From Flavobacterium filum DSM 17961 (lineage in GTDB: Bacteria; Bacteroidota; Bacteroidia; Flavobacteriales; Flavobacteriaceae), in assembly GCF_000425465.1 (NCBI RefSeq), contig NZ_AUDM01000004.1, forward strand, positions 1-64,000: 64,000 bases of DNA, given 5' to 3'. The notes under the pieces are model-generated. The model did no database searches. It was not told where the DNA came from and saw only the letters and a list, made by a program, of their open reading frames with translations. Both the position numbers and the translations under genes were made by a program. Shown here in pieces: positions 12,845 to 41,246 of this stretch. Every line of letters starts with the position of its first letter. Positions within the stretch are counted from its first letter, which is position 1.

Positions 12845-14257
12845 ATGAAAATAAAGCATTTAAACAAAGTTAGTTCAACAGAAAGTTTAGTATTGGTTCC
12901 CGTTTTGGAGATAGAGGAAACTGTTCAATATTTATCGTTATCGGTTTCTAATTCTATTTTTTCCGGAAAGAAAGATACCCATTATGCGTTAGAGAAAGTG
13001 GGTGTTGTTTATCTTTTTATTGGTTTGGGAAAGAAACCGATGGTAACCGATTTTAAGAAAATATTCAGACGTGTGGCTCAAAAGCAAGCCTCTTTTTTTC
13101 AAAAAGAAACGTCTCTGTTTTTACCTGACTTTTTTACGGATGAATGGGCTGCTGCGGCTGTGAACGGATTAGTTTTAGGCACCTATCAATTGGGACATTA
13201 CAAAAAAGAGAAAAAAGTACATCCGTTACAGGAAGTGCGATCGGTATTGAATATTGTGAGTGCCACCAATCGCCAAAAAGCAGTTGAATTGGGTTTAAAA
13301 ACGGCTCAAGCTCAATTGGAAACTTTTCATTTGGTTGATTTGCCACCTAATAAAATTACCCCTAAACATTTGGCCAATTGGTCAATCGATTTAGGCAAAA
13401 AATTCAAATTGGAAGTGGAGATCATCGGAGCAAAAAAAGCCAAAGAAATCGGATTACATGCCTTTATTTCTGTTGGAAAAGGTAGTGCCAATGAAGCCCA
13501 ATTTATTGTTTTAGATTACCAACCGAAAAACGCTCAAAAACATTTTGGTTTGGTGGGTAAAGGCATCACGTTTGATACGGGAGGTTTGAACATTAAAACT
13601 GCCGGAATGGTACATATGAAATGTGATATGGCGGGTGGTGCGGCCGTTTTAGGTGCCATGCAATTGATAGCCGATTTGAAATTACCACATCGTGTTACGG
13701 CAATTGTACCGGCTTGCGAAAATTCAGTAGATGCTCAATCCTTTTTGCCTAGTGATGTCATAGAAAGTTATAGCGGACATACGATTGAAATCATTGATAC
13801 CGATGCCGAAGGCCGTTTAATTTTAGCAGATGGATTATCATATCTCATCAAAAATTACAATCCCGAAACGATTATAGATATTGCTACCTTAACCGGAAGC
13901 AGTGTAGCTACATTTGGTTATGAATGTGGTGCTTTGTTTACGAATAATGAACAACTATCTAAAAAACTTCAAGAGGCCGGAACCAAAACTGGGGAACGTT
14001 TGTGGCCTTTGCCACTTTGGGAGGCGTATCAATCTGATATTGAAAGTGAAATTGCCGATGTAAAGAATTATTCCGGGAAACCGGTTGCCGGAGCGATTTC
14101 AGCTGCGAAGTTTTTAGAATTTTTTACTGACAATCATCCTTCTTGGGCACATTTGGATATTGCCGGAGTGTCATTTGTGGACGATGAATTTGCCAAAACC
14201 AAACATGCCACGGCATTTGGTGTACAATTAATTACTACTTTTATTCAAAATCAATAG
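12845..14257 (+). CDS. pepA: Leucyl aminopeptidase, M17 family
   Basis: Two-zinc aminopeptidase removing N-terminal residues from peptides in the cytosol. Seen: the N-terminal macro-like domain (residues 1-160), metal ligands in GITFDTGGLNIK and MKCDMAGGAAVLGAM, and NTDAEGR-type motif IDTDAEGRLILADGL. 470 residues is the family norm. It sits 5 bp after the esterase gene and 3 bp before an ATP-grasp ligase, so it is co-transcribed with an amidoligase set and may trim or hydrolyse its product rather than serve general turnover. Confidence 0.93.
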   Translation: MKIKHLNKVSSTESLVLVPVLEIEETVQYLSLSVSNSIFSGKKDTHYALEKVGVVYLFIGLGKKPMVTDFKKIFRRVAQKQASFFQKETSLFLPDFFTDEWAAAAVNGLVLGTYQLGHYKKEKKVHPLQEVRSVLNIVSATNRQKAVELGLKTAQAQLETFHLVDLPPNKITPKHLANWSIDLGKKFKLEVEIIGAKKAKEIGLHAFISVGKGSANEAQFIVLDYQPKNAQKHFGLVGKGITFDTGGLNIKTAGMVHMKCDMAGGAAVLGAMQLIADLKLPHRVTAIVPACENSVDAQSFLPSDVIESYSGHTIEIIDTDAEGRLILADGLSYLIKNYNPETIIDIATLTGSSVATFGYECGALFTNNEQLSKKLQEAGTKTGERLWPLPLWEAYQSDIESEIADVKNYSGKPVAGAISAAKFLEFFTDNHPSWAHLDIAGVSFVDDEFAKTKHATAFGVQLITTFIQNQ

Positions 14258-29265: not shown

Positions 29266-29630
29266 TTTATTCTTACTAAAAAGACTCCATTAAGTTTGTT
29301 AAAATCAATAGCTTACTACCGTTAATCGGTAATATATGCAACTGGTCTAAAGCATAGTGCATTTCATCGATAAAATGAGTGTTTTCAACAGATTTCAGAG
29401 GATTTATTTTGTGCTCTTTTATATTCAATTTACATTTGTCTAAGATTTAAAACATGAATCAATTACAAATAAAATGTTAATGATTGATGAATTAAATTCA
29501 GATTAAGTCGTCCCCAAAAACCGGCGTATCAAAAATACCACAAACCACCCTAAGATTGTTTAAGTGCATCAATTTGCTATGTTCTTATTGAAAGAACCTA
29601 TGGCGTATGGAATTTTATTAAGTAAGCGTT
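29266..29630. other. Promoter region upstream of the Pel-like operon
   Basis: 365 bp with no ORF I would call. AT-rich with several short palindromes but no clear TAnnTTTG near the PelF start. If the operon responds to a second messenger or regulator, its control sequence should be here. Confidence 0.4.
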
Positions 29631-31175
29631 ATGAAAAGAAAGCACGATGTAATGTTAATTTTAGAAGGTACGTATCCTTTTAATGGTGGTGGAGTTTCTA
29701 CTTGGGCTCACATGCTCTGTAATGATGTGAAAAATTCTAATTTCACTCTTTACTCTATCAATGCAGATTTCGAATCTAAATCAAAATATACACTAAGTGA
29801 TAACGTAACTAACGTTATACAAGTTCCAATGTGGTCACCGCTTGAACCACAAGAAATGATTGACTATGGAAAAAAATATTTTAAAATCATTTCTATAAAA
29901 GAAAAAAATGATTTGAAAAAAATCAATGAAATTTTCATTCCAATTTTTCAAGATTTATTGCGTCATATTTTTTCTAACACTAGAGATGTAAGAGCTTTTG
30001 ATGAAACGATGAAAAAAATGTGGCGTTATTTTCAAAAGCATGATTATAAAAAAACCATGAAGAGTGAATCGGTTTGGAGAACTTTTTGTTACATGGTAAG
30101 TGAGTTAAATGGAGATGATGAGAATGAAAAAGTTACTTTATTTGATTTAACTTCGGGAATGCGTTGGATTTATCGCTTTTTGATTCCACTTTCCATTAAT
30201 GTTCCAAGAGTTGATGTTTCACATTTGACCTTATCCGGGTTTCCTGTAATTCCTGCTTTGGTTTTAAAATATAAATATGGAACACCAATGGTTGTAACTG
30301 AGCACGGCGTATTTATTCGTGAGCGATTATTAGCCATCAATTCTTCAGAATATTCATTTTTCTTGAAAAAGATGTTGATTAAATTCTCAGAATGTGTTAC
30401 AGAATTGGTGTATTACAAAGCAGATAAAATTCTCTCAGTAAACAAATTCAACATGAAATGGGAGAAATTATATGGAGCTGACCCTAAAAAAATTGAAGTG
30501 ATTTATAATGGTATTGATCATCAATTATTCAAACCACTTCCAAAACCAAGTCACTTAAAAGATGTACCAACTGTTGTTGCTGCTGCTCGTATATTTGATT
30601 TGAAAGATATCATTACGATGATTAGATCTTGTGCTGTTGCTCAAAAACAAATTCCAAACATTCAATATTTGGTATATGGTGATAATAATGCCGTACCTGA
30701 ATATACTGCTGAATGCGAGCGTTTGATTGATGAGTTAGGTATTAGAGCTAATTTCAAATTAGCCGGATATCACAGCAAACCACATGAATTATTTTGTGAA
30801 GGCGATATTTCTATTTTGACTTCCATTTCAGAAGGCTTCCCTTATACCGTTTTAGAATCAATGAGTTGTGGAATTCCGGTTGTTGCTACTGATGTTGGTG
30901 GAGTTACCGAAGCATTAGATGAAAACTGTGGATTTATTTGCAAGCCAAAAGATTATGAAGAAATCGGAAACAGTGTAGTGATTTTATTAAAAGATAAAGC
31001 GTTAAGAGATAGAATGGGTGAGTATGCCAGAGAAAAAGTAATTCGTAACTTTACCATTGATAAATTTATTAATGCTTATGAAAATGTTTACGAACAAGTT
31101 GCCAATAAAGAAGTTAAAGAAGTTCAATTACCAATTATAACAATAGAAGAAGAACAAACAATTAAAGCCTCCTAA
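29631..31175 (+). CDS. pelF: PelF-like glycosyltransferase (GT4)
   Basis: 514 residues. The N-terminal DUF3492-type segment LILEGTYPFNGGGVSTWAHML is the PelF signature; the C-terminal GT-B half has SISEGFPYTVLESMSCGIPVVATDVGGV, the EX7E donor-binding motif. In Pel systems PelF is the cytosolic polymerase that uses UDP-GalNAc/GlcNAc and works with PelG. First gene of a rightward operon of five; the next gene begins 63 bp later. Confidence 0.92.
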   Translation: MKRKHDVMLILEGTYPFNGGGVSTWAHMLCNDVKNSNFTLYSINADFESKSKYTLSDNVTNVIQVPMWSPLEPQEMIDYGKKYFKIISIKEKNDLKKINEIFIPIFQDLLRHIFSNTRDVRAFDETMKKMWRYFQKHDYKKTMKSESVWRTFCYMVSELNGDDENEKVTLFDLTSGMRWIYRFLIPLSINVPRVDVSHLTLSGFPVIPALVLKYKYGTPMVVTEHGVFIRERLLAINSSEYSFFLKKMLIKFSECVTELVYYKADKILSVNKFNMKWEKLYGADPKKIEVIYNGIDHQLFKPLPKPSHLKDVPTVVAAARIFDLKDIITMIRSCAVAQKQIPNIQYLVYGDNNAVPEYTAECERLIDELGIRANFKLAGYHSKPHELFCEGDISILTSISEGFPYTVLESMSCGIPVVATDVGGVTEALDENCGFICKPKDYEEIGNSVVILLKDKALRDRMGEYAREKVIRNFTIDKFINAYENVYEQVANKEVKEVQLPIITIEEEQTIKAS

Positions 31176-31238
31176 AAAATCTACCGCCCCAATTTATTTA
31201 ACCTAACAACAATAGAATATGAGTTCTACTAATGCATC

Positions 31239-32852
31239 ATGGAAAAGCATAGTGAAAATATAAAGATATTAATAGAAAATGTAAAAGATAAAATAGGAAA
31301 ACCGGTAAGCAGCAGAGTTGTTGCCGCAACTATTGAGTCTTTTGGTATTCGGGATATTGATACGGAAGCTGATTATGGCGTATCAAATATTCAAGATTTG
31401 GCTGTATATATTTACAGACAATTAACTACTTCGATTGAGCACAAAGAAAGTTTGAATGCAAAAGAGAAAGAGTTTGTTGCTACTAATCCTGAAACCATAC
31501 AACTTTCTGATTATATGAGGGTTAAAGCTAAGCTTTTTGCCCAATACTACCCATTAGGAATTTTTCATCTTTTACCGGTATTTCTTCAAATTGCTGCTAT
31601 TGTAGCTTTTGGTTATTCGTTATGGACACACGTTCATTTTAATCATTTACAATCTACAGCTGTTGTTTTAGGGGTTATTATTGGTATCGTTTCTACCGGT
31701 GGATTTGTACAAGTTATTGGACGGCAAGCAACTTTTTATTGGAATTATCACGATTATTCCATGACAAAGAAAACGGTAGATTCTTTATTGAAATTGGGCG
31801 TAAAGACATTATTAGTCGTTTTTGCTTCCATTTATTTTATCAATGTATTTTTTCATATTTTTCCATTTAAAGTTTTATTAGTCATTTTTGCTTATGCTTT
31901 TTTAATTGGAACTTTATTATTAGTCTTAGCACCTTTACATACCATAAGACAACGATGGATGATTACCATTTCAATTGTAACCGGAACAGTGATTACAATT
32001 GCTTTAAACCAATTTTCAACTTTACTTATATATTATACCCATTGGATTGGAATTGCTGTTGCAATTTTAATTACTAAAATTTATCTATCTTTATTCTTCC
32101 GAAAATATCTAAAAAAACATCCCCCTAAAGCTGATTTAACAATTAAAGATACAGTATTAATTTATCAAAATCATCGTTATTTCTTGTACGGCTTTTGTGT
32201 TTATTTGTTCATATTTATTGATCGAATATTAGCATGGTCAACCTCTAAAGACGGACAATTACCCTTTATCGTATATTTTGAAAAAAACTATGAACTTGGA
32301 ATGGACATGGCTATTTTAGTATTTCTTTTATTGGCTGGAGTTTTAGAATACAGTATAGCTTCATTTACTCGCTTTTTGGACATCACTCAGAAAGTAATCA
32401 ATTTTCAAAAACCAAAACAATTTAATAAAGAGTTGTTCAAATTATATTGGCAAAATGTAATTGTTTTATTAGTTTCAACATTAGTCATTTATTTGCTTAT
32501 ATATCAAGTAATGTTTGCTTCATGGGGTTATAAAGGTCAGTTTAATGAAGAGCTTGATAATTTAAGTGTAATGGTATGTTATATTGGAGGAACTGGCTAT
32601 TTCTTTCTGGCTTGGGGCATGTTAAACACCCTTTATTTGTTTACACTTGGACAAACTTTACAACCTGTTAAGGGAATTATTTATGCTATTGTAATCAATT
32701 TTATGGTTGGTTTTGTGTTAAGTAGATTTGTAAGTTTTGAATATAGTGTAGTAGGGATGTTCTTAGGCTCTCTATTTTTTATGGGATATACAATGAAACA
32801 TATTTTTCATTTTTTCAAAAAATTAGACTATCATTATTATGCGGCGTATTAA
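31239..32852 (+). CDS. pelG: PelG-like polysaccharide flippase (MOP/Wzx superfamily)
   Basis: 537 residues: an N-terminal soluble part of about 95 residues, then around 12 membrane segments, with HHYDYSMTKKT-like YWNYHDYSMTKKTVDSLLKLG. Located directly after pelF, the standard pairing. It would pass the growing polymer across the inner membrane. A 14-codon ORF from ATG 31219 (MSSTNASWKSIVKI) overlaps its start out of frame and might modulate translation. Overlaps the next gene by 14 bp. Confidence 0.9.
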   Translation: MEKHSENIKILIENVKDKIGKPVSSRVVAATIESFGIRDIDTEADYGVSNIQDLAVYIYRQLTTSIEHKESLNAKEKEFVATNPETIQLSDYMRVKAKLFAQYYPLGIFHLLPVFLQIAAIVAFGYSLWTHVHFNHLQSTAVVLGVIIGIVSTGGFVQVIGRQATFYWNYHDYSMTKKTVDSLLKLGVKTLLVVFASIYFINVFFHIFPFKVLLVIFAYAFLIGTLLLVLAPLHTIRQRWMITISIVTGTVITIALNQFSTLLIYYTHWIGIAVAILITKIYLSLFFRKYLKKHPPKADLTIKDTVLIYQNHRYFLYGFCVYLFIFIDRILAWSTSKDGQLPFIVYFEKNYELGMDMAILVFLLLAGVLEYSIASFTRFLDITQKVINFQKPKQFNKELFKLYWQNVIVLLVSTLVIYLLIYQVMFASWGYKGQFNEELDNLSVMVCYIGGTGYFFLAWGMLNTLYLFTLGQTLQPVKGIIYAIVINFMVGFVLSRFVSFEYSVVGMFLGSLFFMGYTMKHIFHFFKKLDYHYYAAY

Positions 32853-33657
32853 TTTATTTTTTTGGCTTTTGCCATCGATAATGATAGCATATTTATCTGA
32901 ATCAAAGGTAAATAAGAGTTCCGTTTTTGTTTGCTATGGTAAAATCAAAACAGATCAAATCAAAGGCTATTCTTATGTCATTTTAGAAGAAAAACATTAT
33001 AATAAAGAAGAAATACGCCTTTTGAAAAAGCAGAATAAGCATGTAGTTGCTTATATTAGTTTAGGAGAAGTAAATAGCAATGCTACACATTTCAACCTAT
33101 TAAAGGATAATACTTTAGGAAAAAACAACAATTGGAACAGTCATTATCTTGATTTATCAAAAGATAAAACTGTAATTGTATTATCACGATTAGTAAAAAA
33201 ATGTTTAGACAAAGGTTTTGATGGAATGTTTTTAGATAACATTGACAATTTCACCTCATTTGGTCCACAAAAAAATCAAAAAAAGGAATTATTTTCTTTA
33301 TTAAAAAAAATTAGACAAGCCAATCCGGATGCTTTCTTTATTCAAAATGCAGGTTTTGAATTAATAAACGATACTAGTTTATATGTAAATGCAGTGCTAT
33401 TTGAATCTGTATTTACCAATTATCAATTCTCTACCAAAAAATATCAATTAAGAGAACAAAAGGAAACAGATATTTATCTAAATAAATTAAAGACAGTTAC
33501 AGAAAAATATAATTTACCAGTTTTATTGGTTGAGTATGCTGATAATCAAGAACTGTATAAAAATATACAACAAAAGATAAATAATTTAAATGTGAGTTAT
33601 TTTATCGGAAGCATCGATTTACAAGGAATTCCCTCTTTTAGTAATAGTAAAAAATGA
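32839..33657 (+). CDS. GH114-like (PelA hydrolase-type) TIM-barrel protein, exported
   Basis: 272 residues with an N-terminal hydrophobic leader (LFFWLLPSIMIAYL). Seen: HVVAYISLGEVNSN and GFDGMFLDNIDNF, the two conserved acidic strands of GH114/GH166-type alpha-1,4-galactosaminidases, plus PVLLVEYAD near the end. In Pseudomonas PelA this hydrolase is the N-terminal domain of a multidomain protein; here it is a separate polypeptide. Overlaps pelG by 14 bp and the next gene by 4 bp, so tightly coupled in translation. Confidence 0.85.
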   Translation: MRRINLFFWLLPSIMIAYLSESKVNKSSVFVCYGKIKTDQIKGYSYVILEEKHYNKEEIRLLKKQNKHVVAYISLGEVNSNATHFNLLKDNTLGKNNNWNSHYLDLSKDKTVIVLSRLVKKCLDKGFDGMFLDNIDNFTSFGPQKNQKKELFSLLKKIRQANPDAFFIQNAGFELINDTSLYVNAVLFESVFTNYQFSTKKYQLREQKETDIYLNKLKTVTEKYNLPVLLVEYADNQELYKNIQQKINNLNVSYFIGSIDLQGIPSFSNSKK

Positions 33658-35624
33658 TTTTATCAAGCTCCATATTAATAGGTTTTATAAGGATGGTTTT
33701 ACTAATACTATTCTTATATTATTGTAATAATAAATTAGTAAAACGTGAAGGAAGTCACACACTTATACAATTTATCGTAAATGAATGGTTTAAGTATGGA
33801 AGTCTTACTTTAATAATAGTATTTGTCCTGATTCAGTTAAACGTTTACAGTTTAATTAACTTCTTGTTTGTCATTTTAATCTTTATTCTATTAGATGTTG
33901 TTGGGATAAAATACTTTAAAAATCCATTGAAATTTTTCAAAAAATCATCAAAAAACAGATTTTTTGAATTTTTAAAAGATACAGAAAATAAAAAATCAAT
34001 CATAGAACGAGTAAAGCTTGAGCGTCCAAAAAACCTAAAAGATGACCGTGTTTATGTATTTTATTGTACATTAATATTGATAACTCTCGCATTCTTAGGA
34101 AGATATTATTTTTACACTTACGATACCTTCTTATTATCTGATTTATGGATAACAGATTTATATAAAATTATTCAATTTGATAATTTTCACTGGTTTGAAA
34201 CAACAGTAGAGGTGGAGGGTGAGTTGGCTTTTGCTAATATTTATTCTAAACTTGTTGATGTGAGTCCGGAAACGGGCTTGCAAACATTAGTTATTATTGA
34301 AGATGTATTACTAAGTATTATCGTTTTTTGGTCCATTCGGAAAATTACCGTTTCTGCTGTATTTGCTCCTATGATTGGTTTCTTTGCCTATATTTTTCTT
34401 TACTTTTTATCACCGGTAGAAATTCATTATTTATTGCAAAATCATCCTGTTTTATTAGCCTTAACCCTTGCTTTACCGGCTATGATTTATACTTTGAGAC
34501 CAGATGTTATTAATTTTAAGAAGACCAATTTTTTCTTTAGTTTAACAACCTGTTTTTTCGCGATTGGATTAATTGATTTGTTTACATTACTTATTTTAAT
34601 TCCTCCTTTTTATGTCATATCAATTCTTTTTGTAAACAAAAAATATCTATATTTTAAATGGCTATCATTAGCGGCTTATTTGGTTGGAACTGCTCTAATT
34701 TTAGGTGCCTACTTTTTAGCTTGTATGCATAAGCAAAATGATTTCATGATTTTTCTTCAATCTAGTTTGATATCTGTCAATTCATTTACTTATATGCCAA
34801 ATCTGATGGTTCCATTTGAAGAGTTAATTACCTATTATCAATATGGTTCAATATTTGGAATTATTATTCTTCCCATTTTAATTTGGATCAAAAAAGAAGA
34901 ATGGAAACCTTCTTTAGTATTTTTACTTTATTTTAATCTATTAGTAGCTTTATATTTCTTGGGTTATGAATGGATTGACAAAGATTCACTTCGTTTAGCT
35001 TTGTCTGTTTTTATCCCAATTTGTTTTGGAATAACTGCGGCAATTCTTTTGCGATTGTTTTCATTCTTAACCAAATATTTATATAAATTCAAATATACTT
35101 TTGCAACATTTGCTTCCATAGTATTACTCACTGGCATTATATATTTCCAAAAAGATATTTTTAATAACGTTAATACTTCTGACAAAACACCTAGGATGGT
35201 TTTAGATGCTTATGATGAAATTCTCCACGAATATTTCCCTTTTTCGTATGCAGTAGTTAATGATAATATTGCTCAAACCATGAGTATTAATAAACATTTC
35301 TTCATCAATTATGAAGATTTCCTATATGGATATTTGGAAAGTGATGAAATGTATCATAAGAACAAGAAAAAGCCCAATTTCTTAGTTGAAAATCCTCAAT
35401 ATGTCATTCCCAAAAGCATATTAGTATTTGTATATCATGATAATTCGGAACGAAACAATCATTTTGCAGATCAAAGTGAAATTGAACCGCTATTAATGGA
35501 CCAAATTGAAACATTAAAAAAGCGTGGTCGAGAAGTTTCTTTATTTTATAAAAGCCCTTATGTAAATGTATATGAGATTGTAAATGAACCCAAATCAAGT
35601 AAAATTGATGACCTAATCTATTAA
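33654..35624 (+). CDS. Large polytopic membrane protein of the Pel-like operon
   Basis: 656 residues with roughly 13 membrane segments: two or three at the N-terminus, a cytosolic loop of about 55 basic residues (KFFKKSSKNRFFEFLKDTEN), a cluster of ten more, and a C-terminal soluble tail of about 150 residues. I do not recognise a family. By position it would fill the role of PelD/PelE (inner-membrane scaffold of the synthase), but no GAF or degenerate GGDEF domain that would bind c-di-GMP is visible. Overlaps the previous gene by 4 bp and sits 2 bp from the next. Confidence 0.75.
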   Translation: MILSSSILIGFIRMVLLILFLYYCNNKLVKREGSHTLIQFIVNEWFKYGSLTLIIVFVLIQLNVYSLINFLFVILIFILLDVVGIKYFKNPLKFFKKSSKNRFFEFLKDTENKKSIIERVKLERPKNLKDDRVYVFYCTLILITLAFLGRYYFYTYDTFLLSDLWITDLYKIIQFDNFHWFETTVEVEGELAFANIYSKLVDVSPETGLQTLVIIEDVLLSIIVFWSIRKITVSAVFAPMIGFFAYIFLYFLSPVEIHYLLQNHPVLLALTLALPAMIYTLRPDVINFKKTNFFFSLTTCFFAIGLIDLFTLLILIPPFYVISILFVNKKYLYFKWLSLAAYLVGTALILGAYFLACMHKQNDFMIFLQSSLISVNSFTYMPNLMVPFEELITYYQYGSIFGIIILPILIWIKKEEWKPSLVFLLYFNLLVALYFLGYEWIDKDSLRLALSVFIPICFGITAAILLRLFSFLTKYLYKFKYTFATFASIVLLTGIIYFQKDIFNNVNTSDKTPRMVLDAYDEILHEYFPFSYAVVNDNIAQTMSINKHFFINYEDFLYGYLESDEMYHKNKKKPNFLVENPQYVIPKSILVFVYHDNSERNNHFADQSEIEPLLMDQIETLKKRGREVSLFYKSPYVNVYEIVNEPKSSKIDDLIY

Positions 35625-35626
35625 GT

Positions 35627-38600
35627 ATGAAAAACCGTGCATTTTTAACTTCCATACCAAAAGCAGTTTTATTTCTGTTTATGATGCTGTCATTATTCAG
35701 CTGTGCTGATTTTGATGCTTTAAATCCTTTAAAAAATGATTTGTTTTCTAGCGAAAAAGACAAATTATCTAATTTAAGAAGATATAATGATGCTGATTTA
35801 AATTTACCTCCAGTGGTTGAATATATCATTGATTTTGAAAATCCGATAAGTGTAAAATACAGTAATCATTTGAAAAAAATGTGCAATTACACTAAAATGC
35901 CTTTTCGAAATATAAATGTTAAAAGTTGGAATGCTAATTTAGCTATTCAAGAATCAACTCGCGTCATCTGTGTTTTAGAAACAAAAAAACTATCGGATGC
36001 TTCTGTAGAAAAGCTATTAAAATTTGTATCCGATGGAGGAACCCTTTTTCTACCTTTTGCCTGCGAAGACAAACGTTTTGGTTTTATGGCAGGAATGAAA
36101 GTTAATGCAGAATACTCAACCGATATTACTTCTCTGGGAATCAATTTCACGGAATCATTTCTTCCAACTATGAAAAATTCCGAAGTAAGAAAAGCGATTA
36201 CTCATTATGGAATGAGCGGAGAAAATTTTGATAAAACAAAAGTAAAGATCCATGCAACGGCTATTAATAATACTTCATTCCCTTTTATCATTGAAAATAA
36301 AATAGGAGTAGGGAGGGTTATCAATTTCAATACCACTTTTGAATTAGAAAAAATGGATCGCGGATTGTTATATTCCGGAATCATGATGGGCTTAGAAGCA
36401 ATTCCATATCCGGTTGCCAATACCAATACTATCTTTTTAGATGATTTTCCATCTCCATTATACGATACCAAAATGGAACCTATTAAATCTGAAATGAATT
36501 TATCTATTTCTGATTTTGTTAGAAAAATCTGGTGGCCGGATATGAAAGAATTAGCTAAAAAATACCAAGTGAGCTATACAGCTGTACCGGCATTTGATTA
36601 TAATGTAAAAACCAATCCTCCCTTTCTTTTTTCACAATGGGATGAGAAAAAAGTAACCTTAAGCAATAGAGTAGAACCGGTTAGTAGTTGGCTCATGCGT
36701 GATTGTTTGAAAAATGGTCACGAATTAGGTTTTCATGGTTATAATCATGTTTCATTAGTAAAAAGAGATTGGAAAAAACCAGAATTTATTGTTACTGCTT
36801 TAGAAGGGGTTCAAAAAAAATGGAAAGTCAGTAGTTTTGGTGATTTGCCGGTTTCTTATGTTCCTCCTTCCAATTATATTGATCAAATGGGGTTAAAACA
36901 ATTAAAAGAAGGTTTACCAACCATTAATTATATGTGTAGTTTGTATTTAGGTGAAACTTACGAAGGTGGAAATAGAGAATATGATTTTGATCCTTATCAT
37001 CACAACATGTTTGATTATCCTCGAATTTCAAGTGGTTTTGTGGTAGATGATAATTCTAAATACAATATTCATTCTTTGTATTTATATTCCGGTATATGGA
37101 ATCACTTTGTACATCCTGATGATGTCTATCAAATACCTAGTCCATTTAACAAAAGTGCCGGTAATTTTGAACTACGCAATGCAAAAGGATTAGGCTGGAG
37201 AAAAACAAAAGGAGTAGAGGGTGGGCTTTTAGCAGAATTTGATGCTTACATGAAAGAATTTACGCGTGCTTTTCCTCATTCACGCTTTTTAAACGCTGCT
37301 GAAGGTGGTCCGGTTACATTAGACTGGAGAGCTTCTAAGTTCAATCATAAAATCTACAATGGTCAATACATAGTGGAGGAAATTAATCCGGAAACTTCTT
37401 TGTCAAACAGTCAATATTGGTTTTTATATGGCACATTGGAAAAAGCTGAAAACATCGAATCACAATTGAAACAAAATGCTGTTACTTTTTCAAAAACACC
37501 TTACTTAAATGGATATTTATATTCAATTTACACCAATGAACCAAAATTGTCCTTAAAAGATTATCGAGAATACCGAGACAAAGAATTGGATTTTATTTTC
37601 AGTAAAATCAAGTCCGATTATTACACGTATGTTGTAAAAGTTAGAGAATTTGAAAATGGTGCAGATAGTTTTGATGATTATGAAGAACAACTACGAATCG
37701 AAAAAGAAGCTTTGAAACAACGAATGTTGAGCGAATCAAAAATTGATTATGCCGTTTGGAACAAATATGCAGAGTACATGTCATGGGAAAATAAAGGAGA
37801 GGATGTATGGAAAATGTTAGAAAAACATTGCTCCAAATATCCAACCAAAGAAAATGTAATGTATTCTCAAGAGTTGGATAAATTAATTGGTTATCCGAAT
37901 GATTTAGCTATGGAAAAATGGATAAACGCACAATTATTAGTAAATCCAAGAGATAAAGATTTACTCAATCGATATGTGGCCGACTTTAATACTCCTGAAA
38001 ATAAAGAAAAAATTAAACAAGCCCTAATCACTTTATTAAGCGTTGATACAGGAAAAGAAAGTTTATTTAATTATATTCAACATTTGTTGTGGTATGAACC
38101 GCAGACTGCTTTACAAGAATTAGAGAAAATTCAACCCAATTTAGATTTTAAAGATTTGGCCACCAACATAACCTGGTTATATGCGAATGAAAAACAGTTT
38201 CAAAAAGCATATGATTGGTCGTTTTATAGTAATGAAATTGATTTTGCTACAAAAATGGAGTGGTTAATGGAGTTAAAGCAATATGATATCCTGATCAGTG
38301 AATATAATAATTATATCCAGACTAATCCAGATGATTATAAAACAAAAGCCTTGATGAGTAATTATTATCATGAAATGGGTAAATTCAAAGAATCATGGGT
38401 CATTGCAAATGAATTACCAGATTCCAAAGAAAAGGAAAGCCTACGAAAAATGCTTAATGAAGATGTTATTTATCAAGATGAAATGTTACAACAAGATTTA
38501 TTACAAAATCATTCTGAATTGTTTTATGATAACGTAAAAAAATCACTCACAAAAACCAATCGACTTAAATATGGCAATTTTATTGAGTCTGAAAATGAAT

Positions 38601-39556
38601 TGCAAACCAATCAAACTCGAAGAGCTTCAATAGCAACAAGACATTCTTACAATTTTTACGATAAAAAGAAAAACTTACATCGTATTGCTGCAACCTATTC
38701 TGAGTTTTACCCTTTAATTCGTTCAACTATTGATACGATTATTGTTGATCCAACCTTTACAAGAATGATGAATAGAGCAGAGGAGGAGACAACTATTCCA
38801 ATTTCTGAACAAAATAAATTTAGAAATCTTTTCGGAATTGAGTATCAGTATAAAAATCCATTTTCTTATGATAAATTTCAGTATTGGTCAAGAATTCGTT
38901 TAGAAATGGATAATTTTAACGAGCTTTATATGCAATTTGGAGCGGGAATTAGTAAAACATACAATAAAAACTTTAGTTCTGCTCAAATAAATGTTATGCC
39001 TGTTCAAACCGCTCCTGGTCATGCTAAAGAAATTTATCATGTACAAACAAACCTTTATCAGAGTATGTATTTTTATAAAAAGATAAATGTTAGTTTGGCA
39101 ATTGAATCAAGCTATTATTCAAAAAGTAATTATAATACTGATTTTATAACCGATAATAATATTGATATTACGTTTACCTTAAGAACCGGTTGGGATGATG
39201 GAGAGGAAAAACAATTTAAATGGGTTCCATTCCTTGAATCTTCATTAGTAAGAGGATCTACAAATTTAGGTGACGGTTATCCGTATTGGATGTTAGATAA
39301 ACGATTTTTTGGTGGTGCTGGATTGTCTTTTAGTTATGGTTTGGAAAAAGATGATTTTAAAGCAAAAGCTGAAGCCGCCTATTTCTTAGATGATTATGCA
39401 GATGAATTTCAACGTTTCTCTGGAACAATTTCCTATAGATTGTTTAATTACACTGCTCTAGTTGGTAGTTTTGAAATCTTTAACCAAGATAAGTTTTATT
39501 CCAATACTATTCAATTTGGGTTAAAACATAGTTTCAAAGAAAAAAAGAAAAAATAA
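35627..39556 (+). CDS. PelA-deacetylase / TPR / outer-membrane-barrel fusion lipoprotein
   Basis: 1309 residues. Lipoprotein leader (LFLFMMLSLFSC). Residues about 50-220 resemble the PelA middle domain; 225-560 form a NodB-like deacetylase with FLDDFPSPL (catalytic and metal Asp) and ELGFHGYNHVSL (HxxxH). A helical TPR-like section follows (about 690-960), then a beta-strand-rich C-terminal 250 residues with alternating aromatic strands (AEAAYFLDDYADEFQRFSG) like the PelB/outer-membrane porin. So activities that are split between PelA and PelB in Pseudomonas seem joined here. Last gene of the operon, closed by a strong terminator. Confidence 0.85.
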   Translation: MKNRAFLTSIPKAVLFLFMMLSLFSCADFDALNPLKNDLFSSEKDKLSNLRRYNDADLNLPPVVEYIIDFENPISVKYSNHLKKMCNYTKMPFRNINVKSWNANLAIQESTRVICVLETKKLSDASVEKLLKFVSDGGTLFLPFACEDKRFGFMAGMKVNAEYSTDITSLGINFTESFLPTMKNSEVRKAITHYGMSGENFDKTKVKIHATAINNTSFPFIIENKIGVGRVINFNTTFELEKMDRGLLYSGIMMGLEAIPYPVANTNTIFLDDFPSPLYDTKMEPIKSEMNLSISDFVRKIWWPDMKELAKKYQVSYTAVPAFDYNVKTNPPFLFSQWDEKKVTLSNRVEPVSSWLMRDCLKNGHELGFHGYNHVSLVKRDWKKPEFIVTALEGVQKKWKVSSFGDLPVSYVPPSNYIDQMGLKQLKEGLPTINYMCSLYLGETYEGGNREYDFDPYHHNMFDYPRISSGFVVDDNSKYNIHSLYLYSGIWNHFVHPDDVYQIPSPFNKSAGNFELRNAKGLGWRKTKGVEGGLLAEFDAYMKEFTRAFPHSRFLNAAEGGPVTLDWRASKFNHKIYNGQYIVEEINPETSLSNSQYWFLYGTLEKAENIESQLKQNAVTFSKTPYLNGYLYSIYTNEPKLSLKDYREYRDKELDFIFSKIKSDYYTYVVKVREFENGADSFDDYEEQLRIEKEALKQRMLSESKIDYAVWNKYAEYMSWENKGEDVWKMLEKHCSKYPTKENVMYSQELDKLIGYPNDLAMEKWINAQLLVNPRDKDLLNRYVADFNTPENKEKIKQALITLLSVDTGKESLFNYIQHLLWYEPQTALQELEKIQPNLDFKDLATNITWLYANEKQFQKAYDWSFYSNEIDFATKMEWLMELKQYDILISEYNNYIQTNPDDYKTKALMSNYYHEMGKFKESWVIANELPDSKEKESLRKMLNEDVIYQDEMLQQDLLQNHSELFYDNVKKSLTKTNRLKYGNFIESENELQTNQTRRASIATRHSYNFYDKKKNLHRIAATYSEFYPLIRSTIDTIIVDPTFTRMMNRAEEETTIPISEQNKFRNLFGIEYQYKNPFSYDKFQYWSRIRLEMDNFNELYMQFGAGISKTYNKNFSSAQINVMPVQTAPGHAKEIYHVQTNLYQSMYFYKKINVSLAIESSYYSKSNYNTDFITDNNIDITFTLRTGWDDGEEKQFKWVPFLESSLVRGSTNLGDGYPYWMLDKRFFGGAGLSFSYGLEKDDFKAKAEAAYFLDDYADEFQRFSGTISYRLFNYTALVGSFEIFNQDKFYSNTIQFGLKHSFKEKKKK

Positions 39557-39558
39557 AA

Positions 39559-39588
39559 AAATAGCCGTCCAAAATGAGACGGCTATTT
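39559..39588. terminator. Bidirectional terminator between the Pel-like operon and the DUF4832-type gene
   Basis: Eleven-bp stem AAATAGCCGTC (39559-39569) and GACGGCTATTT (39578-39588) with A-run and T-run on either side. Confidence 0.9.
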
Positions 39589-39608
39589 TATTTCAATTAA
39601 TTTATTAT

Positions 39609-41246
39609 TTAGTGTTTCACAACAAAACGTCTTGAATCTTTGGTTTGTCCATTCTCAAATTGAAGGAAATAAACTCCGTTGTTTAGATGTTGTACATCAA
39701 AACTAACTTTGTTACCAACTTGAGTTGCATTCAATTTAATTTGTTGCCCTACTGAATTGTAAATAGTAAAAGTATAGTCTTCAATTGTATCCATTTCTAC
39801 AAACAACTCATTAGATGCCGGAACCGGATGTAAAGTAACTTTAGCTCTATCATTATCTGTCAAACTAAGTGCTTGATTTACGATAATGGTATGTTTTAAA
39901 TCGTTATATCCTGTTGACGATTCCCACATATTATTGTTTGCAAATCGTATAGCGTATTCAGGTCTATTAGCAATGGTTTCATAAATATCCGGTAAATGTA
40001 AATATACTTTATAACTTCCCGGAACCATATTTGTTGGCAATGTTAAATTCTCAGTTATCGATTTTGTTCCCATCCAATCTCTTGGATCTGCTTCTAGCAT
40101 TAAAGAATAGGTTTGATTTGTAACTGCATTTTTCAACACGATATATGCATATCGTTCATTAAATGGGGCAGAATATCCAACATTTTTCAGATTTAAAGTT
40201 ACCGGTAAAGTACTGTTAGCAGTTATACTTTGTGGAAAAACTGCAGATGTCAGTTCAAAACGATACCCCAATTTCTTTTGAATATCACCAAAACAATCAC
40301 TTGTTTGCCATCCATTAATAACATTTGGATGATAATCTAAATTTAAATACGACCAATGAAATTTTGCCATTTCTAATTGTGCAGTTGCACAATTTGTTCT
40401 GGATTCAAAAACAGCACACGTTTCACCACCCATTGGTAGAAATTTAGTTTCTTGTTCTAAATATGGATATTCTGTATTCACATTTGTGTAGGTACCAACA
40501 TCTGTATTACTTGATAAAAAACAATCATTATGGTGACCAATTCGAGCCAAAGAAGAGTTTGTAAATGCTTGATTTGCAGGTAGAGGAGAAGTTGCATTAT
40601 ACATTTGCTGTTTCATTTTTGGGTAACGAATTTGAACGGCTCTTGTATTGGGTAATGCTGCTAAAATGGCATTCGTAATGTCCTTTCTATGATTATAATT
40701 AGCAGTGGTTAAATTTGTTTGATTATATCCCCAACCGCCAAATTCTGCTTGGTTGGTATAATACCATTCTCCCCAAGCTCCAATAAATCCAGCTTGCATT
40801 ACAGCAATTACATCGGTATTGGCAATTAAAATTGGTTTAAGTTGATTGATATGCTCTAAAATTCTTGTTTTAGTTGCATCTAGATATTGAGCATTTTCAT
40901 CATCAGAATAGGCAAATCTAATAACAGCTTTTAATCCTGCATTTCTAATCCGATTAAAATCAGTTTGCATGTTATTTAAATACGATTGAGGAATTGTTGT
41001 ATTCACAAAATCATTCAAATAAAAATACCTAAAAACTAAAGAAATATTCTGACTAGTTCTATAATTGGTTAATGTTGATTGGTTAATCAAATTATAACCA
41101 CTTGAAGATTGTGTGTCACTGTATTTGTAAAAACCTCTTTCCGGATTAGGAAAGTTTGCAGTCGAAGGGCTGTAACTAACTGTTACATTTTGTGCCGCAA
41201 GTTGTAAACACAACATGGCACTCAAAAAGGTAAATGCTTTCTTCAT
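39609..41246 (-). CDS. T9SS-exported DUF4874/DUF4832-type protein
   Basis: 545 residues: Sec signal (FTFLSAMLCLQLAAQ), a TIM-barrel-like DUF4874 region starting NFPNPERGFYKYSDTQ and including QAGFIGAWGEWYY, a DUF4832 beta domain (about 300-450), and a C-terminal type-A sorting domain (LHPVPASNELFVEMD to RRFVVKH). It should be secreted by the type IX system and attached at the surface. The family is thought to act on carbohydrates, so a link with the convergent Pel-like operon is possible but unproven. Operator-like repeats lie upstream. Confidence 0.9.
   Translation of the reverse strand: MKKAFTFLSAMLCLQLAAQNVTVSYSPSTANFPNPERGFYKYSDTQSSSGYNLINQSTLTNYRTSQNISLVFRYFYLNDFVNTTIPQSYLNNMQTDFNRIRNAGLKAVIRFAYSDDENAQYLDATKTRILEHINQLKPILIANTDVIAVMQAGFIGAWGEWYYTNQAEFGGWGYNQTNLTTANYNHRKDITNAILAALPNTRAVQIRYPKMKQQMYNATSPLPANQAFTNSSLARIGHHNDCFLSSNTDVGTYTNVNTEYPYLEQETKFLPMGGETCAVFESRTNCATAQLEMAKFHWSYLNLDYHPNVINGWQTSDCFGDIQKKLGYRFELTSAVFPQSITANSTLPVTLNLKNVGYSAPFNERYAYIVLKNAVTNQTYSLMLEADPRDWMGTKSITENLTLPTNMVPGSYKVYLHLPDIYETIANRPEYAIRFANNNMWESSTGYNDLKHTIIVNQALSLTDNDRAKVTLHPVPASNELFVEMDTIEDYTFTIYNSVGQQIKLNATQVGNKVSFDVQHLNNGVYFLQFENGQTKDSRRFVVKH

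Follow-up and report, generated by a model that had tools for sequence, protein, structure and literature searches.

The window analysed here comprises the first 64,000 nucleotides of contig NZ_AUDM01000004.1 of Flavobacterium filum DSM 17961, and its positions 29631-39556 hold a five-gene operon that is a conserved variant of the Pel machinery in Bacteroidota, a description of which was not found in the literature searched. All five genes lie on the + strand, at the coordinates given by a first-pass annotation made from the sequence alone, in the order pelF, pelG-like gene, PelA-type hydrolase gene, gene for a 656-residue membrane protein and gene for a 1309-residue fused protein (FUS), with intergenic gaps of 63, -14, -4 and 2 bases. 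The proposal made there, a Pel-like operon whose domains are distributed anew among its proteins, was borne out. The evidence supports a covalent deacetylase-exporter in FUS, and we consider it probable that the operon makes and exports a Pel-like exopolysaccharide through this protein; the identity of the polymer, the direction of its flow, the topology and the role of the membrane protein are what we infer.

The FUS protein

Residues 75-502 of FUS match DUF2194 (4e-66), and residues 45-502 align with PDB entry 9ZAU (2.2e-39). This structure is the Bacillus cereus PelADA, described in PMC13254593 as a three-domain enzyme, the founder of families CE26 and CBM114, that deacetylates alpha-1,4-linked N-acetylgalactosamine (GalNAc) oligomers. 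The key residues named there (D262, D263, H350, H354, P405, R458, H488 and D491) have their counterparts in D272, D273, H370, H374, P414, R466, H496 and D499 of FUS (eight of eight in the 9ZAU alignment), and the CE26 set of D-D, HxxxH, P, R and HxxD is complete in the window protein. A strand-rich stretch that follows (Table 1) is probably the counterpart of the PelADA beta-rich domain, as far as the model goes.

All eight mapped residues are kept in 42 of 44 aligned rows. The other two rows, L051 and L052 (genomes G286 and G075, one genus), have RxxxD in place of HxxxH, with further changes in one of them, and DUF3492, the PelF family, is unmatched in both genomes. The loss of the zinc ligands in just these two rows links the deacetylase site to whether the synthase is present. 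The proteins concerned (L051:9214-13143, + strand; L052:2630-6577, - strand) are probably deacetylase-dead, exporter-like proteins kept alone.

The C-terminal part was modelled with AlphaFold2 on residues 256-1309 using eight sequences, at a mean predicted local distance difference test score (pLDDT) of 64.6, and the solenoid helices and 16 barrel strands are the well-modelled part of the prediction. Comparison by VIA-align gave BcsC (Z 23.3, root-mean-square deviation [rmsd] 3.6, 296 residues aligned), PelB 9h80 (Z 22.4, rmsd 5.2, 334 aligned) and PgaA (Z 22.2, rmsd 3.4, 270 aligned), with CymA as the row following the exporters at Z 16.1; two BcsC cryo-EM rows scored 22.7-22.9 yet had an rmsd of 14-21. 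The top five structures by score are all polysaccharide exporters, and a 16-strand barrel is common to PelB, BcsC and PgaA according to PMC12141448. The structure prediction that the first-pass annotation had called for therefore recovered the barrel and the solenoid, and its claim that deacetylase, tetratricopeptide repeats (TPRs) and barrel are joined in one protein was upheld.

That annotation had also called FUS surface-anchored, and this part did not stand. Among 42 fused proteins a lipobox was found in 32 by pattern and in a further three by eye, the start codons being unproven, and seven (L076-L081 and L083) have no lipobox cysteine. By homology with BcsC and PelB, and given the C-terminal barrel, the N-terminal enzyme should be periplasmic, and the lipid would be a tether rather than a display device. 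The lipobox found by pattern in 32 of 42, together with a protein sorted by the type IX secretion system (T9SS) that is encoded downstream, could also be read as the mark of a catabolic or adhesin-type surface protein that is not a polysaccharide exporter. We regard this as very improbable: the five best-scoring structures are all exporters, and the deacetylase key residues are lost only in two proteins from genomes without PelF.

Partner genes and distribution

The window PelF matches NCBIfam PelF (NF038011) with 177.8 bits, over a cut-off of 100, and Pfam DUF3492 at 1.2e-57. The earlier claim that both PelF and PelG are recognisable holds fully for the first and in part for the second. The PelG-like protein reaches 14.0 bits with the Pfam PelG model over residues 113-534, under the cut-off of 29, and relatives match better (14 of 25 family members at E<=1, the best at 1.4e-9); its gene occupies the position expected of PelG. 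Judged by these scores, the window PelG is a strongly diverged one. It carries a conserved N-terminal extension of about 100 residues (window 31239-31550) in which P22, A30 and E33 are invariant over 25 rows; the Bacillus PelG seemingly has no such extension, on a very weak alignment (E 6).

The hydrolase was claimed to be a separate GH114-like protein, and this was confirmed by a match to the GH114 model (4.5e-24) and by the PelA hydrolase 5tcb as the best solved structure (1.6e-16), TM1410 trailing at 2e-4. Glu189, the putative catalytic residue of the window hydrolase, is conserved in all 39 rows and aligns with a residue of the 5tcb chain that we take to be PelA E218, going by the length of the construct and its tag. 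E218 is the catalytic base of PelA (PMC9894940). Separate PelA or PelB orthologues elsewhere in the genome had been named as a point against the fused arrangement: the genome has a single DUF2194 match and no second match to a CE-solenoid-barrel profile, which a very diverged PelB could escape, while a second GH114-type gene does exist (G000:C6, about 161476-161802; L100:1483-2505, - strand).

Table 1. Operon features, in window positions
Feature	Position	Strand	Basis
pelF, GT4 glycosyltransferase, 514 aa, putative polymer synthase	29631..31175	+	NCBIfam PelF, Pfam DUF3492
pelG-like inner-membrane transporter, 537 aa	31239..32852	+	Pfam PelG, residues 113-534
PelA-type hydrolase, own gene, 272 aa, N-terminal signal-like stretch	32839..33657	+	PelA hydrolase 5tcb
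656-aa polytopic membrane protein, C-terminal alpha/beta part	33654..35624	+	No Pfam or NCBIfam match; co-occurs with PelF and DUF2194
FUS, 1309 aa: signal with lipobox, PelADA part, TPR-like solenoid, 16-strand barrel	35627..39556	+	
Lipobox cysteine, residue 26, LFSC	35702..35704	+	
CBM114-like domain, residues ~61-255 (approximate borders)	35807..36391	+	9ZAU alignment from residue 45, domain scheme of PMC13254593
CE26 deacetylase (predicted), residues ~265-503	36419..37135	+	9ZAU alignment, conservation
Strand-rich stretch, residues ~572-644	37340..37558	+	Strands in low-confidence part of AlphaFold2 model
TPR-like helical hairpins, 18 helices, residues ~683-982	37673..38572	+	AlphaFold2, block pLDDT about 77-93
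16-strand beta-barrel, residues ~985-1302	38579..39532	+	AlphaFold2, VIA-align
Bidirectional terminator-like stem-loop, closes operon	39558..39589	.	12 pairs on one strand, 13 on the other

Across 299 genomes of the family, DUF2194 was matched in 47 at E<=0.001, in 16 over the cut-off and in 13 at E<1e-40; twelve of these 13 have frames 1314-1349 residues long, and the remaining one, of 843 residues, is cut off by the end of its contig. The operon is patchy within the genus of the window, DUF2194 matching in G000, the genome of the window, only and in none of at least 20 other listed genomes. At 1e-10, DUF2194 was found in 27 of 395 Bacteroidota genomes, all in frames of 1268-1349 residues, and PelF (DUF3492) and a profile of the membrane protein were each found in the same 27, which span five families and 12 of 170 genera. 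Eight of 249 Bacillota genomes match DUF2194, all in frames of 573-640 residues. Full-length Bacteroidota forms in these searches are all fused and Bacillota forms all split, a reading that excludes the Thermotoga and Fusobacterium loci; in the Thermotoga control both DUF2194 and DUF3492 match. As the suggested phylogeny of fused versus split forms, a tree of the shared FUS/PelADA part (42 rows, five near-duplicates and one shortened row, L043, being removed) separates 36 fused from 6 split proteins by a single branch with support of 100/99. As the tree is unrooted, this is consistent with one fusion event but does not prove it.

The complete five-gene set is present in 37 of 43 long loci, all of which keep order and strand, and in 36 of the 37 every gap is at most 121 bases. 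These 37 loci represent 36 genomes (L038 and L095 are one contig, judged by its length, with identical proteins), and the L094 frames for hydrolase and PelG seem to be interrupted or truncated. Of the six incomplete loci, L033 is cut by a contig end, L039 and L040 are from Bacillus, L051 and L052 have FUS without partners, and L076 is too diverged for BLAST; a profile places the membrane protein of its genome about 4 kb upstream of FUS. By FUS identity, the closest named records are a Flavobacteriales metagenome-assembled genome (MAG; 98%), a Flavobacterium MAG (76%) and F. piscinae (L034, 76%). Locus L037, on a contig filed under a Limnohabitans MAG, also carries the fused operon; its FUS groups with flavobacterial ones and the contig is probably misbinned.

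Several neighbouring genes were seen around these loci. Upstream of pelF, loci L077-L098 except L097 encode another PelF-like GT4, shorter than PelF at about 390-430 aa, of which L076 has just a fragment; it may point to a two-sugar polymer. In L050 a 317-aa open reading frame upstream of pelF (13063-14016, - strand) resembles the C-terminal part of PelG (25%, 6.6e-23) and is, by this similarity, classed as a partial PelG duplicate. GH114-like proteins of 319-359 aa lie near pelF in L041 (12852-13847, - strand), L042, L044, L045 and L047-L050, and the second GH114-type gene of the window's own genome (L100) encodes another; nine of nine members match the pel hydrolase profile in swapped order, with later profile positions at the N-terminal half and positions ~40-145 at the C-terminal half. 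They look like circularly permuted TIM barrels, the N-half matches being weak (i-E 3.6e-5 at best, 0.13 at worst). In the window itself, a strong terminator-like element ends the operon, and convergent to FUS lies a DUF4874 and DUF4832 protein with a T9SS sorting tail (39609-41246, - strand), which holds the same position in L033-L036 and is likely a neighbour rather than an operon part. A Bacteroidetes-type promoter match at 29408-29438 was left unused, the window holding nine such matches against 8.8 expected by chance.

The membrane protein and regulation

The 656-residue protein makes up the fifth component of the machine, one that is constant and has not been described before. PDB profile searches with it gave nothing, and an AlphaFold model from seven sequences reached a mean pLDDT of 50, with a best Foldseek match at E 1.1. 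The 13 transmembrane helices first counted are a rough figure; a plain hydropathy scan and this poor model suggest about 11-13.

GT-C enzymes are expected to carry an acidic residue after the first helix. In the membrane-protein family, 16 of 30 rows have D at this position and 12 have N, E206 is conserved in 27 of 30, one of 30 members matches DUF6541 (4.3e-6) and three of 30 match a mannosyltransferase model (best E 0.04). The protein is possibly GT-C-like, though the indications are weak. If it were, the same machine might handle another polymer, a different hexosamine or a mixed one, with the membrane protein attaching a further sugar or a lipid-linked group on the periplasmic side, and 'Pel' would fit the machinery alone. 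The DUF6541 and mannosyltransferase matches, the second GT4 in the loci of families f24 and f13 and the strong divergence of PelG speak for such a polymer. We nevertheless find it somewhat unlikely, given that the CE26 key residues and the PelA-type hydrolase are conserved and that both are tied to GalNAc polymers in characterised systems, and given the frequent N at the position where GT-C enzymes should be acidic.

The first-pass annotation saw no PelD-like receptor and had the membrane protein take its place. The first observation stands: none of the five operon genes is PelD-like, and neither is any gene lying between pelF and FUS in the 37 loci that are complete. The PelD_GGDEF model (PF16963) had no match in any genome, Bacillus and 14 controls included, and is uninformative on PelD. 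GGDEF domains at E<=0.001 were absent from 8 of 11 genomes, that of the window among them, with one in G530, six in G309 and 12 in the Bacillus control; 8 of the 14 control genomes have matches. Between the five operon genes there is no room for a PelC gene, the rest of the genome not having been searched for one, and none of the five resembles PelE, for which no search was made. Control is apparently not exerted by PelD and cyclic di-GMP (c-di-GMP).

The second proposal fared less well. All 22 complete rows of f24 (Balneolaceae, going by L038) and f13, from 21 genomes, have a gene for a protein of 518-547 residues between pelG and the hydrolase gene. The C-terminal part of this protein is HD-GYP-like, with a 3'3'-cGAMP phosphodiesterase as the nearest structure (3.3e-14). 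The canonical HD-GYP motif ends in GYP; the rows printed read HHEWxNGxGTP. This degenerate protein of ~540 aa is found at L038:5298-6917 (+ strand) and in 21 further f24/f13 rows, and its ligand is puzzling in Balneola (G681), which has no GGDEF match. The gene is missing from the 14 complete flavobacterial rows and from L097 (f8). Since the membrane protein is present both with and without it, that protein is not simply a stand-in for PelD.

A broader version of the idea, in which the membrane protein functionally replaces PelD and PelE and activates and recruits PelF at the inner membrane, seems distinctly unlikely to us. Neither pelD nor pelE is seen in the operon and the family occurs in the same genomes as PelF, which speaks for it. 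However, the HD-GYP-like protein is the likelier regulator where it occurs, the invariant residues of the membrane protein are mostly in its C-terminal part with no nucleotide-binding match, and the PelG N-terminal extension is an equally good candidate for PelF docking.

Proposed pathway and comparison with known systems

In the fused deacetylase-exporter pathway that we favour, PelF would polymerise a Pel-like amino-sugar polymer in the cytosol and the PelG-like protein would carry it across the inner membrane. Once it is in the periplasm, the CBM114-like domain of FUS may bind the polymer and the CE26 metal site de-N-acetylate it, after which the solenoid would take it onward and the 16-strand barrel export it; the separate hydrolase may trim or clear chains. 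As FUS is PelA-deacetylase and PelB in one chain, modification and export could not be uncoupled. More tentatively, and with the balance somewhat against it, the operon may define a c-di-GMP-independent Pel lineage (Flavobacteriaceae and Balneolaceae) with an obligate deacetylase-exporter, an invariant new membrane protein that may act as a GT-C-type transferase or in handing over the polymer, and a modified or differently attached polymer.

Several points weigh against the proposed pathway. Gene content, domain make-up, key residues, gene order, co-occurrence and the lack of GGDEF are computational findings, and polymer and activity are predicted. The PelG match of the window lies under its cut-off, the TPRs of FUS are recognised by fold only, Pfam listing none, and the CE domain was poorly modelled, much of it under pLDDT 50, so that the deacetylase assignment rests on sequence. 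The operon shows no gene for PelC, PelD or PelE, and G530 and G309 have both operon and GGDEF, which makes a c-di-GMP link possible there. The loss of zinc ligands concerns one lineage, the 27 genomes are related and not independent cases, and 19 of them gave rows to the membrane-protein profile, whose match to them was bound to occur. For that profile, with at most three candidates scored per genome, the informative results are its absence from the other 368 genomes and its presence in eight unused ones.

The operon shares with B. cereus pelDEADAFG the genes for PelF and a PelG-type protein, a deacetylase of the same family, judged by sequence, and a hydrolase as separate gene. In B. cereus, however, PelADA stands alone with a transmembrane anchor under control of PelD and c-di-GMP (PMC7112168, PMC13254593), whereas the window has a fused form and no PelD. 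In Gram-positive pel loci, PelA is described as consisting of the deacetylase alone, hydrolase genes lying close by (PMC7112168), and the Bacillus loci L039 and L040 also have a separate hydrolase. Shared with P. aeruginosa pelABCDEFG are PelF, a PelG-type protein, a PelA-type hydrolase, a deacetylase and an exporter with the same TPR-barrel fold. In P. aeruginosa one protein combines hydrolase and deacetylase, and a second one, with a PelC ring of 12 subunits, serves as exporter, while in the window deacetylase and exporter are fused and the hydrolase is free; the deacetylase is CE26-like in the window and CE21 in P. aeruginosa PelA. PelA is reported to bind the TPR region of PelB (PMC12141448).

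BcsC and PgaA share with FUS the TPR solenoid and 16-strand barrel (Z 22-23) and, to our knowledge, have no deacetylase in front. The BcsZC protein of Zymomonas likewise has a periplasmic enzyme fused to a TPR-barrel pore (PMC7112194), but its enzyme is a cellulose-system hydrolase and that of FUS a predicted Pel-type deacetylase. The separate hydrolase is known (PMC7112168) and BcsZC is a precedent for enzyme-pore fusion, which qualifies the distinct solution to export claimed at the outset. A survey of 1733 genomes reports 146 pel operons, pelB fission and the BcsZC fusion (PMC7112194), and its main text, supplements and figures aside, contains no term that starts with bacteroid-, flavobact-, cytophag- or rhodotherm-. 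In Fusobacterium nucleatum a DUF2194 gene is reported as downregulated together with pelF and pelG (PMC9848294). No description of Pel-type machinery in Bacteroidota was among the literature matches listed, subscription papers and preprints being outside their scope.

According to a 2026 paper, the way in which Gram-negative species connect their inner-membrane Pel machinery with PelA deacetylation and with export through PelB and PelC is unclear (PMC13254593). As deacetylase and pore are one chain in FUS, one purified protein could help to answer this question. The finding extends Pel-type machinery to Bacteroidota, including hosts in which, as in that of the window, no GGDEF protein was detected. 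It would also lend a function to DUF2194 (CE26 and CBM114) and to a membrane family that has no name yet.

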